Shown here piece by piece: positions 32,613 through 60,637 of a stretch of 64,000 bases of DNA. The stretch's first letter is position 1. Each line of letters opens with the position of its first letter. The stretch spans positions 1,054,001 through 1,118,000 of the forward strand of contig NZ_LT629749.1 of the NCBI RefSeq assembly GCF_900105065.1. Reading direction: 5' to 3'. The notes under the pieces were generated by a model. That model was given only the letters and a program-made list of their open reading frames with translations. It made no database searches and was not told the DNA's origin. The position numbers and the translations under genes are program-made. The DNA comes from Friedmanniella luteola. Its GTDB lineage: Bacteria > Actinomycetota > Actinomycetes > Propionibacteriales > Propionibacteriaceae.

Positions 32613-32640
32613 TTGACGTGTCAGAGCCGCGGTGTAGATT
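32613..32640 (+). promoter_or_regulatory. promoter of the DNA-damage operon
   Basis: TTGACG and TAGATT are separated by 16 bases. This is one of the strongest sigma-70-like promoters of the window. The transcription start, near 32647, lies just before the SOS box. Confidence 0.7.
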
Positions 32641-32650
32641 GTTCCCCAGA

Positions 32651-32666
32651 TCGAACAGGCGTTCGA
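32651..32666 (+). promoter_or_regulatory. LexA-binding SOS box
   Basis: TCGAACAGGCGTTCGA is a perfect match to the actinobacterial SOS box TCGAAC-N4-GTTCGA. It lies right after the -10 box, where bound LexA would block polymerase. It places the operon that ends in DNA polymerase IV under DNA-damage control. Confidence 0.85.
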
Positions 32667-32929
32667 TTCCACCCTCCGCTCTTGGGGAAGCAGCGGCGGA
32701 CGGGTCGACCGCCTGCAGGATGCGGCGTCGTGTTCGCGGCACGCGCTCCTGGCACGCCTCGACGCGGACGGACCTCGACCCCCGTCCGCGTCGGGGTGGC
32801 CCGTCCGTCCGCGACCCACCCGACCGTGCCACCGGCCCCTGCCGGCGTCCGGTCGTGCCCCCGCCCTGCCGCTCGCCCCGTCCGTTCGTCCTGCCCGCCC
32901 CGTCCACCAAGCCTGCTGAAGGAGCCTCC

Positions 32930-33268
32930 GTGCCTGCTCTGAGGAGCGTCGCCGTGCTCGACCCGTCCGCGTCCGCCGCCCGCCTGCCCGTCCCGAGCCG
33001 CCCCGTCGGTGCCGACGACCGGGAGCCCGTCGAGGTCCGCACCGAAGCGGTCGACGGGGTCGTGACCCCCACCCAGCTGCTGCGCGACGGGCGGCTGTGG
33101 GTCGTCCGCGCGGCCGCGGCGCTGCCGGGACCCCTGGTCCGCTGGCGGGTCGACGCGACCCCGGGGCCCGGGGTGCCGGCCGTGCCGTTGGAGCTCAGCG
33201 ATCAGCACGGACGTTGGACGCTGGTCGAGGTGTCCGCCGCGGGGACCGGGTCGCCGTCGTGGTCGTGA
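32930..33268 (+). CDS. DUF6504-like small protein
   Basis: A 112-residue protein resembling the DUF6504 group that occurs near error-prone polymerases in actinobacteria (tentative). The conserved part is PVEVRTEAVDGVVTPTQLLRDGRLWVVRA, followed by a WRVDA strand and a beta-rich end (HGRWTLVEV). The GTG at 32930 has AAGGAG 6 bases upstream. It is the first gene of the SOS-controlled operon, and the HEPN gene starts within its stop codon. Function unknown. Confidence 0.65.
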   Translation: MPALRSVAVLDPSASAARLPVPSRPVGADDREPVEVRTEAVDGVVTPTQLLRDGRLWVVRAAAALPGPLVRWRVDATPGPGVPAVPLELSDQHGRWTLVEVSAAGTGSPSWS

Positions 33269-33720
33269 GCGTGGTGGCACCGGTCCGGCTGGCCGAGCGG
33301 CAGGCGTCCCGGGCCCAGGGGCGGCGGGCCGTCGCGACGGACCTGGCGCGCGCCCGCGCCGCCCTCGACGAGGCGGCGGCGGCCGCCAGCCCCGCCGAGC
33401 GGTACCTGGCGACCCACGCCGCGGCCCTCCGCGTGGCGGCCGTCGTGCTCGCGGTGCGGGCCCGGCCCGCGCCCGGGGCCCGGCCGCGCAACGCCTGGTG
33501 GCTGCTGGCCGAGGTGGCGCCCGAGCTGGGGGAGTGGGCCGCCTTCTACGCCGCCACCGGGTCGCGTCGGGACGCGCTGCTCGCCGGCTCGACCGGCGCG
33601 GTCAGCACGCGTGAGGCGGACGACCTGCTGCGCGACACGGAGGGATTCCTCGCCCTGGTCCAGCACGCGGTGGCCCCGCCCGGACCGGCGGCCGCCCGGC
33701 CGGGTGCGGAGTCGTCGTGA
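33265..33720 (+). CDS. SAV_6107-type HEPN-fold protein
   Basis: A 151-residue all-helical protein. The core RARAALDEAAAAASPAERYLATHAAALRVAAVVLAVRARP and the block RPRNAWWLLAEVAPELGEWAAFYAATGSRRDALLAG match the SAV_6107 HEPN family. Its RNase-type RX4-6H is not obvious, so it may bind rather than cut nucleic acid. The GTG at 33265 overlaps the DUF6504-like stop by 4 bases. Its place between an SOS promoter and DNA polymerase IV suggests a role in damage-induced synthesis or its control. Confidence 0.8.
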   Translation: MSVVAPVRLAERQASRAQGRRAVATDLARARAALDEAAAAASPAERYLATHAAALRVAAVVLAVRARPAPGARPRNAWWLLAEVAPELGEWAAFYAATGSRRDALLAGSTGAVSTREADDLLRDTEGFLALVQHAVAPPGPAAARPGAESS

Positions 33721-33821
33721 CCGCCGCTCGCGCGCCCGTCCCGACGCGGGGGCATGCCCTAGGCTGCCGCTCGACGGCGGGCTCTCCCGGATCCCGCCCA
33801 CCCGGCACGCAGGAGGAGACG

Positions 33822-34559
33822 ATGGCCGAGCCCCGACGCCGGCGGTCGGTCTCGGCGACGTTCCTGCTGGAGCTGCTGGCCGGTCAGCTCCGCGGGCTCG
33901 ACCCGGCCGGGAGCCCCCTGGAGGTCGTCGACCTCGGGGGCGGCACCGGGGGCGTGGCCACGGCGCTGGCCGGCTACGGCCACCGCGTCACCGTCATCGA
34001 CCCCAGCCCGGACGCCCTCGCCTCGCTCGGACGACGCACCGCCGAGGCCGGGCTCGGGAACCGCATCCGCGCCCGGCAGGGTGACGCCGCCGACCTGGTC
34101 GACGTGGTCGGCGAGCGCTCGGTCGACGTCGTCGTCTGCCACCGGGTGCTGGAGGTGGTGGAGTCGCCGCCGGAGGCGCTCGCCGCCGTCGCGTCGGTGC
34201 TGCGGCCGGGTGGCGCGCTCAGCCTGCTGGCCTCGCAGCGCAAGGCCGCCGTGCTCGGGCACGCCCTGGCCGGGCACATCGGCCTGGCCCGCCGGGCCTG
34301 GGCCGACACCCAGCGCTTCGACCACGACGGCCTGGTCGCGCTGCTCGACGGTGCCGGCTTCACCCTGCAGGCCAGCCACGGCATCGGGGCGCTGGCCGAC
34401 CACGTCGCGGAGTCGGTGCTGGAGGCGCAGCCCGGCGCCTTCGCCGAGCTGAGCGCGCTGGAGGCGGAGGTGAGCACCGACCCGGCCTTCCGGGCCCTGG
34501 CGCCGCAGGTGCACCTGTTCGCCCGGGTGGGGCTGACCACCCCCGCCGCCGTCGACTGA
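33822..34559 (+). CDS. class I SAM-dependent methyltransferase
   Basis: A 245-residue methyltransferase with a near-perfect ribosome binding site AGGAGGAG before ATG 33822. VVDLGGGTGGVATALAGYGH is the SAM loop, VIDPSPDAL gives the acidic residue, RQGDAADL and VDVVVCHRVLEVV follow. It belongs to the UbiE/BioC-like group, and the substrate is unknown. A TAGGCT -10-like box at 33758-33763 may give an extra promoter. It forms part of the SOS operon with dinB 13 bases downstream. Confidence 0.85.
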   Translation: MAEPRRRRSVSATFLLELLAGQLRGLDPAGSPLEVVDLGGGTGGVATALAGYGHRVTVIDPSPDALASLGRRTAEAGLGNRIRARQGDAADLVDVVGERSVDVVVCHRVLEVVESPPEALAAVASVLRPGGALSLLASQRKAAVLGHALAGHIGLARRAWADTQRFDHDGLVALLDGAGFTLQASHGIGALADHVAESVLEAQPGAFAELSALEAEVSTDPAFRALAPQVHLFARVGLTTPAAVD

Positions 34560-34572
34560 GCCCGGTGCGGCG

Positions 34573-35757
34573 GTGAGCAGCGCGGGCCCCTCGACCGGTC
34601 CGATCATCATGCACGTCGACATGGACGCCTTCTACGCCTCCGTCGCGCTGCGGGAGCGCCCCGACCTGCGGGGCACCCCCGTCGTGGTGGGCGGGGAGCA
34701 CCGCGGCGTCGTCCTGTCGGCCACCTACGAGGCCCGGGCGCTGGGCGTGCGGTCGGGCATGTCGTCGACGCAGGCCCGGCGGCTGGCGCCCGCGGCGACC
34801 TTCGTGCCGCCCGACTTCGACCGCTACAGCGAGGTCTCCCGCGCCATCGTCGCCGTGTTCGGCACGGTGTCCGCCGTCGTCGAGTCCGCCTCGATCGACG
34901 AGGCCTTCCTCGACCTGACCGGCTCGGTGCGGATGTTCGGCCCGCCCGCCGAGATCGGCGAGCACGTCCGCGCCGTCGTCGCCGACGAGCAGGGCATCAC
35001 CTGCTCGGTCGGCATCGGTCCCACCAAGTTCGTGGCCAAGATGGGCAGCCGCGCCGCCAAGCCGGACGGTCTGGTGGAGGTCCCGCCGGGTGCGGTCGCC
35101 TCCTTCCTGCACCCGCTGCCGGTGGAGGCCATGTGGGGTGTCGGCCCGTCGACCGCCCGACGGCTGCACGGCCTGGGGCTGGAGACCGTGGGGGACCTCG
35201 CAGGCACCCCCGTGTCGACGCTGCGGCAGACCTTCGGTCCGCACAGCGGCCGGGTGCTGCACGAGCTGGCCCACGGGCGGGACCGCCGGCGGGTGGTCCC
35301 CACCGAGCCCGAGCGCAGCGTCGGCTCGCAGGAGACCCTGGGCCGGGACACCGACGACCCGGACGTCGTCCGCCGGGAGCTGCTGCGGATGGCGGACCGG
35401 ACGGCCGGCCGGATGCGCAAGGCCGGCCTGGTGGGCCGGGTGGTCGCGGTCTCGCTGCGGTTCTCCGACTTCACCGAGGTGACCCGCTCGACCACGCTGC
35501 CCACCCCGACCGACGTCACCGAGGAGATCTACGAGGCGGCGGTGGCCCTGCACGACAAGCTGGGCCTGGACCGTGCCCGGATCCGCCGCGTGGGGGTGCG
35601 GGTGGAGGGCGTCGCCCCCGCCGGGCAGGCCTACCGGCAGCCGCAGCTGACCGACCCCGAGCACGGCTGGCAGGAGGCCGACCAGGCCGTCGACGCCGCC
35701 GTCGCCAGGTTCGGGCCGGCCGCCGTCCAGCGACTGGCGCTCAAGCGCCGACACTGA
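34573..35757 (+). CDS. dinB: DNA polymerase IV (Y family)
   Basis: A 394-residue translesion polymerase. The metal-binding carboxylates are D16 and D18 in MHVDMDAFYASV and D109/E110 in SIDEAFLDLTG. The steric gate region is VALRERPDLRGTPVVVGG. The helix-hairpin-helix MWGVGPSTARRLHGLGLETVGDLA and the little-finger domain (VVAVSLRFSDFTEVTRSTTL) complete it. A terminal beta-clamp motif is not obvious. It is last in the LexA-controlled operon, so it is expected to be induced by DNA damage. Confidence 0.95.
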   Translation: MSSAGPSTGPIIMHVDMDAFYASVALRERPDLRGTPVVVGGEHRGVVLSATYEARALGVRSGMSSTQARRLAPAATFVPPDFDRYSEVSRAIVAVFGTVSAVVESASIDEAFLDLTGSVRMFGPPAEIGEHVRAVVADEQGITCSVGIGPTKFVAKMGSRAAKPDGLVEVPPGAVASFLHPLPVEAMWGVGPSTARRLHGLGLETVGDLAGTPVSTLRQTFGPHSGRVLHELAHGRDRRRVVPTEPERSVGSQETLGRDTDDPDVVRRELLRMADRTAGRMRKAGLVGRVVAVSLRFSDFTEVTRSTTLPTPTDVTEEIYEAAVALHDKLGLDRARIRRVGVRVEGVAPAGQAYRQPQLTDPEHGWQEADQAVDAAVARFGPAAVQRLALKRRH

Positions 35758-35938
35758 TCGGTCGATTCCGTTTCCCTTAGCGGATCTGCCACCTAAACTG
35801 AACTCGACTCGCCCAGCAGGGCGGCGCTGGATGCACGAGACGTCCGGGCTGCAGGTCCAGGGGTACCTCCTGGCCCGGCGCCGGAGGCGACGTACGATGG
35901 CGGGGAGTCAACGACGAGACCGGCGGGAGGTGGGTCCG

Positions 35939-36355
35939 ATGGCCCTCTCGGACGAGGAGCAGCGGCTCCTGGCGCAGATGGAGGCCGCCCTGGCGGCCGA
36001 GGACCCCAAGCTGGTCAACGCCTTGCGCGGGACCGGGGTGCGCCGGGTCCACCGTCGTCGAGCCGCGGTCGCGGGCGTCGGCTTCTTCGTGGGACTGGCC
36101 CTCCTGGTCGTCGGCATCACGCTGGACCGCGAGGTGCTGGGTGTCGTCGTGAGCGTGCTCGGCTTCGTCGTCATGGTCGCCGCCTCGGTCGTGGCCATCT
36201 ACTCCTGGCAGCACGTCGGGGGCGTGGGCGCCGACCCGGCGCAGACCCCCGACCGGGCCACCACCGCCCAGGGTTCCCGTTCCGCGGGCGACCAGGGCTT
36301 CATGAACAAGATGGAGGAGCGCTGGCGCAAGCGCCGCGACGAGTCGGGGTTCTGA
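35939..36355 (+). CDS. DUF3040 membrane protein
   Basis: A 138-residue protein of DUF3040 (Rv2169c type). The N-terminal motif MALSDEEQRLLAQMEAAL followed by a basic RRVHRRR linker leads into two membrane helices (VGFFVGLALLVVGITL and VVVSVLGFVVMVAASVVAIY) and a soluble tail ending in basic WRKRRDESGF. GGGAGG lies 6 bases upstream of the ATG at 35939. The family is actinobacterial with unknown function. Confidence 0.88.
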   Translation: MALSDEEQRLLAQMEAALAAEDPKLVNALRGTGVRRVHRRRAAVAGVGFFVGLALLVVGITLDREVLGVVVSVLGFVVMVAASVVAIYSWQHVGGVGADPAQTPDRATTAQGSRSAGDQGFMNKMEERWRKRRDESGF

Positions 36356-59728: not shown

Positions 59729-60637
59729 ATGACTCTGTCGTTGGACGACGTGCGCAACAAGCGCTTCCGGATGGCCCGCAAGTCCGGCTACGAGGTCCTG
59801 GAGGTCGACGAGTTCGTCGACGAGGTGGAGGCCACCTTCGAGCAGCTGTTCGAGGAGAACCGGAACCTCAAGAAGCAGGTCGAGTCGCTGAAGTCGACCG
59901 GCTCGGCCGCCAGCACGCCCGCCGAGGACGCGAAGCCCGTGGTGGCCGAGCGCCAGCCGGCCGCCAGCAGCCCGGCCCCCGGCACGGCTCCCGCGCCGGT
60001 CGTCAGCGCCCCCGCGCAGCCCGTCGAGCGGCTCGTCGTCACCGCCAGCAAGGAGGCCAGCTCCGCGGTCGTCCGGCTGGTCGAGCTGTCGACGGACCAG
60101 GCCGAGCGGCTGGTGGCCGAGGCCGCCGCCGAGGCCGCCCAGATCCGCGAGCAGGCCTCGACGGCCGCCGCCGAGGAGACGTCCGAGGCCCACGCCCGCG
60201 CCCAGAAGGTCGAGACCGAGGCCCGCGCCCACGCCGAGCGGCTGCAGGCCGACGCGCTGGGCCGCGCGGAGTCGCTCGACCGGGAGATCGAGACGCGGCG
60301 CACCCAGATGTTCGGGGAGCTGGAGAAGCAGCGCGACGAGCTCACCGCGACCGTGCAGGCGCTCCGCAGCTTCGAGGCGACCTACCGCAGCAACCTCACC
60401 CGCCACCTGCAGAGCCAGATCGAGGTGCTCGCCAGCGGCCACGAGGAGCCGGCCGACCCGCCGGCCGCGCTGGACGCCGCCCCGACCGCTCCGCGGACCA
60501 CCGGTGGCGCGTCCGCCGCCGACGGCGCGGAGCCGGGGGCCGACCCGGCCGCGGACGACGCCCCCACCGCCGGTGGGGGATCGGCCACCAGCAGCGACAC
60601 CCCGCGCCTGGACGCGCTGCTCGGCGACCAGCGCTGA
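59729..60637 (+). CDS. wag31: polar growth protein DivIVA/Wag31
   Basis: A 302-residue coiled-coil scaffold for polar cell-wall growth. The membrane-curvature domain reads DDVRNKRFRMARKSGYEVLEVDEFVDEVEATFEQLFEENRNLKK (residues 6-49; quoted here only in part as KSGYEVLEVDEFVDEVE). A Pro/Ala-rich stretch at 60-110 interrupts two coiled coils (about 110-230), and the tail after about 240 is disordered. Homologous to Rv2145c. The basic MARK segment replaces the usual phosphosite region. Confidence 0.93.
   Translation: MTLSLDDVRNKRFRMARKSGYEVLEVDEFVDEVEATFEQLFEENRNLKKQVESLKSTGSAASTPAEDAKPVVAERQPAASSPAPGTAPAPVVSAPAQPVERLVVTASKEASSAVVRLVELSTDQAERLVAEAAAEAAQIREQASTAAAEETSEAHARAQKVETEARAHAERLQADALGRAESLDREIETRRTQMFGELEKQRDELTATVQALRSFEATYRSNLTRHLQSQIEVLASGHEEPADPPAALDAAPTAPRTTGGASAADGAEPGADPAADDAPTAGGGSATSSDTPRLDALLGDQR

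Follow-up and report, generated by a model that had tools for sequence, protein, structure and literature searches.

A putative DNA-damage-inducible translesion-synthesis operon in Friedmanniella luteola with a LexA box, a PafBC-type promoter and a structured leader RNA

The stretch of the Friedmanniella luteola genome analyzed here (the window; 64,000 nucleotides, contig NZ_LT629749.1, positions 1,054,001 to 1,118,000) contains, on its forward strand, a four-gene operon ending in a gene for a Y-family DNA polymerase. Three genes, at 32930-33268, 33265-33720, and 33717-34559, overlap successively by 4 bases and are followed, after a 13-base gap, by dinB at 34573-35757, confirming the close packing up to DNA polymerase IV noted in a preliminary description of this DNA. 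The identities proposed there for the last three products are borne out by family profiles: a HEPN_SAV_6107 protein of 151 residues (PF18726, E 2.5e-30), a class I S-adenosylmethionine-dependent methyltransferase (PF08241, E 2.8e-18; no NCBIfam equivalog over the cut-off), and DinB, DNA polymerase IV (PF00817, E 9.8e-50; NCBIfam PRK03858 over the cut-off). The first product, a diverged DUF6504 protein of 112 residues, fits its earlier label only indirectly. Although the Pfam DUF6504 profile (PF20114) does not match the window protein, it scores over the Pfam cut-off in the proteins encoded at the corresponding position in relatives, and a profile of these positional relatives matches the window protein with an HHalign probability of 96% (E 1e-9; alignment A3). 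Upstream of the genes, on the same strand, lie a -35 element, TTGACG (32613-32618), a PafBC/RecA-NDp-type promoter, TGTCAGAG-N8-TAGATT (32619-32640), whose -10 element is TAGATT (32635-32640), a LexA box, TCGAACAGGCGTTCGA (32651-32666), and a leader with two hairpins.

The LexA box matches TCGAAC-N4-GTTCGA with 0 mismatches, as previously described, and is one of only three exact boxes in the whole genome (4,717,514 bases). The remaining two stand at lexA and ahead of imuA'-imuB-dnaE2, which argues that the consensus is valid for this host and that the operon box is no chance match. lexA itself, encoded at 1608012, has three boxes nearby (one exact, two with one mismatch), and recA has a one-mismatch box with a PafBC-type promoter 81 bases further, the two-signal layout known from mycobacterial recA. 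In an order-level sample, the HEPN gene was found in 42 of 58 genomes, and an exact LexA box lies upstream of it in all 30 loci fetched. The set was then widened by class-wide loci and 80 named loci. Outside the Streptomyces group, all 81 loci in which 650 or more bases precede the HEPN gene are boxed, 70 of them exactly and 79 with at most one mismatch, while the remaining two combine a box with two mismatches with the PafBC motif; elsewhere in the HEPN loci, only four exact boxes occur in 714 kb. This conservation ahead of orthologous operons, which the preliminary description had named as a check, strongly supports membership of the operon in the LexA (SOS) regulon. PF18726 is also present in Corynebacterium glutamicum, where, judging from gene order, cg2381 is probably the HEPN orthologue. 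cg2381 belongs to the LexA regulon and shows a ciprofloxacin induction equal to that of recA (M 3.86; PMC5055667). In the Streptomyces-group HEPN loci, the LexA box is absent or unclear; CCGAACN4GATCGA occurs in some of these loci only and adjoins another palindrome, and we make no claim for it as a LexA box. A one-mismatch LexA-like site within a DivIVA-like coding region of the window (59838-59853) is probably due to chance.

From the LexA box to the first gene, which begins about 280 bases past the promoter, extends a leader of approximately 270 bases. The span given in the preliminary description begins at the -35 element; the description did not mention this long leader and missed the conserved RNA structure within it. 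Hairpin A (32676-32696, CCGCT - CTTGGGGAAGC - AGCGG) carries the conserved loop motif GGGGAAG, which is approximately 28-fold enriched in leaders; its arms are paired at 0.69, compared with 0.47 after swapping arms between loci, giving weaker but positive support for a conserved structure. Hairpin B (32755-32798) has a 17-bp stem and the loop ACCTCGACCC, and hairpins with the same loop core, CUCGACCC, and stems of up to 18 bp are found in leaders across the loci. When the register of hairpin B was set on the first three pairs and pairs 4-12 were scored, 83% were paired, compared with 51% (sd 3) with arms swapped and 40% at random positions. In an alignment of 27 sequences, 92.6% of cells are paired (60% shuffled, 40-54% slid), changes on both sides occur in 13 of 14 pairs, and the covariation score is 0.867 versus 0.240 shuffled; this alignment (A6) is stem-selected, and one loop C was omitted from its last ten rows for register, a bias of which the arm-swap test is free. 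Hairpin B is thus shown by covariation to be a conserved RNA structure. Model R1 has a single match in the genome, at the operon leader (E 4.5e-7). Across 782 kb comprising the loci and the window it has 26, each of them on the plus strand and ahead of the cassette genes. The model also matches, outside the training set, in two genomes of the same genus that lack HEPN and DUF6504, where the hairpin precedes the methyltransferase gene and dinB, and a matching hairpin is also present in a HEPN-less relative. HEPN as an obligatory partner of the RNA was rejected, as three HEPN-less genomes also have the RNA. A coding function of the leader was likewise rejected, as the reading frame of hairpin B with respect to the first gene varies among all three possibilities; in-frame stops between the two occur in 8 of 55 leaders.

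We also considered whether hairpin B acts in transcription termination or at the DNA level rather than as a loop-specific regulatory RNA. Its stem is GC-rich and very stable, as a terminator's would be, and actinobacterial terminators often have no T-run. However, the CUCGACCC loop remains invariant while the stem sequence turns over, hairpins with this loop and a stem of at least 8 are approximately 145-fold enriched in the leaders (37 in 19 kb versus 13 in 989 kb elsewhere), and the hairpin stands ahead of all genes of the operon, which makes this reading doubtful. The loop complement GGGTCG lies downstream of the hairpin in 22 of 55 leaders, compared with 2.7 expected, which suggests a pseudoknot in some leaders. 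In the window, a complement to most of the loop, GGGTCGA (32702-32708), precedes the hairpin rather than following it. The leader resembles the leader RNAs of Rfam in being a structured RNA in a 5' leader and matches none of the families in Rfam 15.

The preliminary description had read the promoter as a plain TTGACG/TAGATT pair. Both hexamers are present with a 16-bp spacer, and most related promoters have TTGAC at the corresponding position; however, this reading is incomplete, because a PafBC-type motif occupies the same bases and recurs at the same position in relatives. The RecA-NDp consensus used by the PafBC heterodimer is tTGTCRgtg-8 nt-TannnT (PMC5656591; PMC6789036). The operon promoter differs from it at two positions that are lower-case in the consensus, having A in place of the t of gtg and lacking the T ahead of TGTC. 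Searching the genome with TGTCRGNG-N8-TANNNT gave 37 matches, including the operon promoter, and the reversed-pattern control gave 0. The promoter ends 10 bp ahead of the LexA box, and 51 of 78 boxed loci share this fixed geometry, with TGTC, from the PafBC -26 motif, 29-32 bases ahead of the box; at other positions TGTC is almost absent. As motif and box recur at fixed spacing, the operon is probably under the control of two DNA-damage regulators, LexA and PafBC. The genome encodes an adjacent, overlapping pair of WYL-domain genes, which are possible counterparts of pafB and pafC. In the Streptomyces group, TGTC(A/G)G(T/C)G lies upstream of HEPN in 42 of 43 loci, against a background of 0.1 per 500 bases; in these loci (L076-L185), the element is mostly GATTGTCAGTGG, followed by cACgATg, and the form that is kept is TGTCAGTG. 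Because the -10 element there is cACgAT, a PafBC dependence of the Streptomyces-group loci is only suggested, and a first motif search in Streptomyces venezuelae is reported in which the PafBC motif did not come out as conserved (PMC9380542).

An alternative account would make this a plain SOS operon, controlled by LexA alone, in which TGTCAG merely belongs to the spacer of an ordinary SigA promoter. A TTGACG -35 element, which PafBC promoters do not need, is indeed present, and TGTC is missing at the expected position in 27 of the 78 boxed loci. Against this stand the 37-to-0 excess of the 22-base pattern over its control, the near confinement of TGTC to one position relative to the box, and the retention of TGTCAGTG in the Streptomyces loci despite the lack of a clear box. 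We therefore regard LexA control alone as unlikely.

Comparison of the genes across relatives places the operon within a widespread actinobacterial cassette of the order DUF6504 - HEPN - DnaE2 - methyltransferase - DinB; in many actinobacteria, a PHP-type DnaE2 immediately follows HEPN, and the methyltransferase and DinB come next. In the same genus, one genome (L242) carries the full cassette, including DnaE2, with an exact LexA box and the PafBC motif, whereas the window and its nearest relative (G001) have the cassette without dnaE2. The window operon is probably a derivative of the cassette that has lost dnaE2, in a genome with a separate imuA'-imuB-dnaE2 operon. The two types of DnaE2 are distinct, since a hidden Markov model of the cassette type gives 1752-2000 bits for cassette DnaE2 and 531 for the host's ImuB-linked DnaE2. 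At the order level, genomes carrying cassette dnaE2 mostly lack the other type; this mutual exclusion seems to be broken only in G032 and G044, each of which apparently carries the two types. A 2026 study describes DnaE2B genomes as lacking ImuA and ImuB (PMC12926913). Co-occurrence of HEPN and DnaE2 was also considered as evidence and proved uninformative, because DnaE2 is near-universal in the order.

The preliminary description had suggested that the uncharacterized products are accessory factors of mutagenic repair. For DUF6504 this is plausible because its relatives sit immediately before DnaE2 and DinB: in distant classes that have no HEPN, the protein still stands ahead of DnaE2, and within the same family one genome lacking HEPN (L243) has exactly DUF6504-DnaE2-DinB. 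It occupies the position expected of the stand-alone ImuB-C described in 2026 and is probably that protein, an identity that we infer, since neither HHalign nor Pfam established it with significance and PF20114 is absent from three ImuB proteins. Its predicted beta fold has no PDB match, as reported for ImuB-C. The window protein is reduced, its central W..ET..WW segment being missing (alignment A3). This segment is also gone from the DUF6504 proteins of G001, L106, and L162, all four loci being without cassette dnaE2, and is retained in other dnaE2-less loci. For HEPN, an accessory role is suggested by gene neighborhood, and the methyltransferase may have an SOS role, but it also accompanies HEPN in Streptomyces, where there is neither a polymerase gene nor a box.

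Alternatively, DinB (or DnaE2) might be the sole useful SOS product, with DUF6504, HEPN, and the methyltransferase merely carried along. Two genomes of the same genus (L277 and L278, in G042 and G012) fit this idea, having lost DUF6504 and HEPN while retaining the LexA box, leader RNA, methyltransferase, and dinB. The opposite case is also found: in L092, L093, L095, L137, L151, and Kribbella-type loci, where the stretch seen contains no polymerase gene after HEPN, the HEPN gene retains a box that is exact or nearly so, and the position of DUF6504 before DnaE2 is held in distant classes. The idea of idle passengers is thus quite improbable, and the retained box makes it likely that HEPN is an SOS effector in its own right. 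L277 also carries, where dinB begins, a second LexA-like box accompanied by a PafBC-type TGTCGGTG.

The structure model of the HEPN protein (predicted local distance difference test score 93) has HEPN proteins as its top PDB matches (Foldseek probability 1.00, E 0.26). An R46-x4-H51 string is present, and H51 is replaced by Q or Y in several relatives, so that the RX4-6H ribonuclease motif is not conserved in the family; the 2013 HEPN survey lists the SAV_6107 family without a catalytic motif and gives no context for it (PMC3710099). The protein is probably a binding scaffold rather than a nuclease. An SOS-controlled toxin-antitoxin pair, with HEPN as RNase toxin and DUF6504 as antitoxin, would fit the frequent role of HEPN proteins as toxins and the R46-x4-H51 string but is very improbable given the variable H51, the listing without a catalytic motif, the occurrence of HEPN without DUF6504 in several loci, and the lack of plasmid relatives in our search.

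Taken together, these data point to a translesion-synthesis operon induced by DNA damage and governed by a three-layer switch composed of LexA, PafBC, and the leader RNA, a reading to which we assign a probability of roughly 0.78. In the first layer, SigA RNA polymerase, together with PafBC bound to single-stranded DNA, would start transcription at TGTCAG...TAGATT. In the second, LexA bound just downstream of the -10 element would block this start until its RecA-triggered cleavage, such that DNA damage would both relieve LexA repression and, via single-stranded DNA, activate PafBC. In the third, hairpins A and B, whose structure is indicated by covariation, could modulate elongation or translation. 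The products would be a reduced DUF6504/ImuB-C-like protein, a HEPN scaffold, a methyltransferase, and an active DinB, with DinB performing translesion synthesis and DUF6504 and HEPN acting as recruitment or scaffold factors. Recurrence across many relatives argues that the switch is real and testable. Several observations weigh against this reading. The 27 boxed loci without TGTC resemble ordinary SigA promoters, indicating that dual control is not universal; NCBIfam gives the WYL pair no PafB or PafC name; GGGTCG does not occur downstream of hairpin B in the window and is found there in only part of the leaders, so that no single pseudoknot covers all cases; DUF6504 and ImuB C-termini gave no significant HHalign match; and dinB may have a separate promoter. 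More tentatively, and with the odds against it, the leader could be a new pseudoknotted family of cis-regulatory RNA imposing a post-transcriptional checkpoint on mutagenesis, in which translesion-synthesis genes need LexA cleavage, active PafBC, and the RNA switch, with HEPN as a new mutasome subunit.

Each element has a known precedent taken singly: dinB operons under SOS control, dual control by PafBC and LexA, and ImuB-C/PolY modules. DnaE2B-[ImuB-C]-PolY-RecA and PolY-[ImuB-C] modules are described for Actinobacteria, including Tessaracoccus, in the 2026 study (Nucleic Acids Res 2026, PMC12926913). Like them, the cassette places a small stand-alone protein beside DnaE2 and an active Y-family polymerase, as in L243; unlike them, the window version is missing dnaE2. 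The searched text of that study does not mention HEPN, a methyltransferase, LexA, a PafBC site, or a leader RNA. The ImuA'-ImuB-DnaE2 mutasome, which this genome encodes at another locus with an exact LexA box in front, is likewise an SOS-controlled mutagenic operon but consists of other genes, and the DnaE2 of the HEPN cassette is of a different lineage. Mycobacterial recA is also under two damage regulators (P1/P2, PafBC and LexA; PMC5656591) but uses two separate promoters, whereas the window has a single compact one, in which the PafBC-type -10 element is directly followed by the LexA box. In S. venezuelae, dnaE2-dinP and pvnz_37140-37135 are LexA-bound, mitomycin-induced dinP operons (PMC9380542); these are different loci, and the Streptomyces HEPN locus has neither dinB nor a clear LexA box. 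In the open papers and Rfam, we did not find the compact joint promoter of the cassette, the link of HEPN to DnaE2/DinB, or the leader RNA. In actinobacteria, drug resistance can arise through induced mutagenesis, a process whose control and accessory factors are poorly known outside mycobacteria. The locus leads to the predictions that LexA and PafBC act jointly at one promoter, that translesion genes are regulated by a new structured RNA, and that HEPN_SAV_6107 has a functional role.

Downstream of dinB, the window contains a DUF3040/SCO2097-family gene (35831-36355). In many relatives, this gene follows HEPN or the methyltransferase, indicating that the SOS operon has a fixed neighbor across the class.

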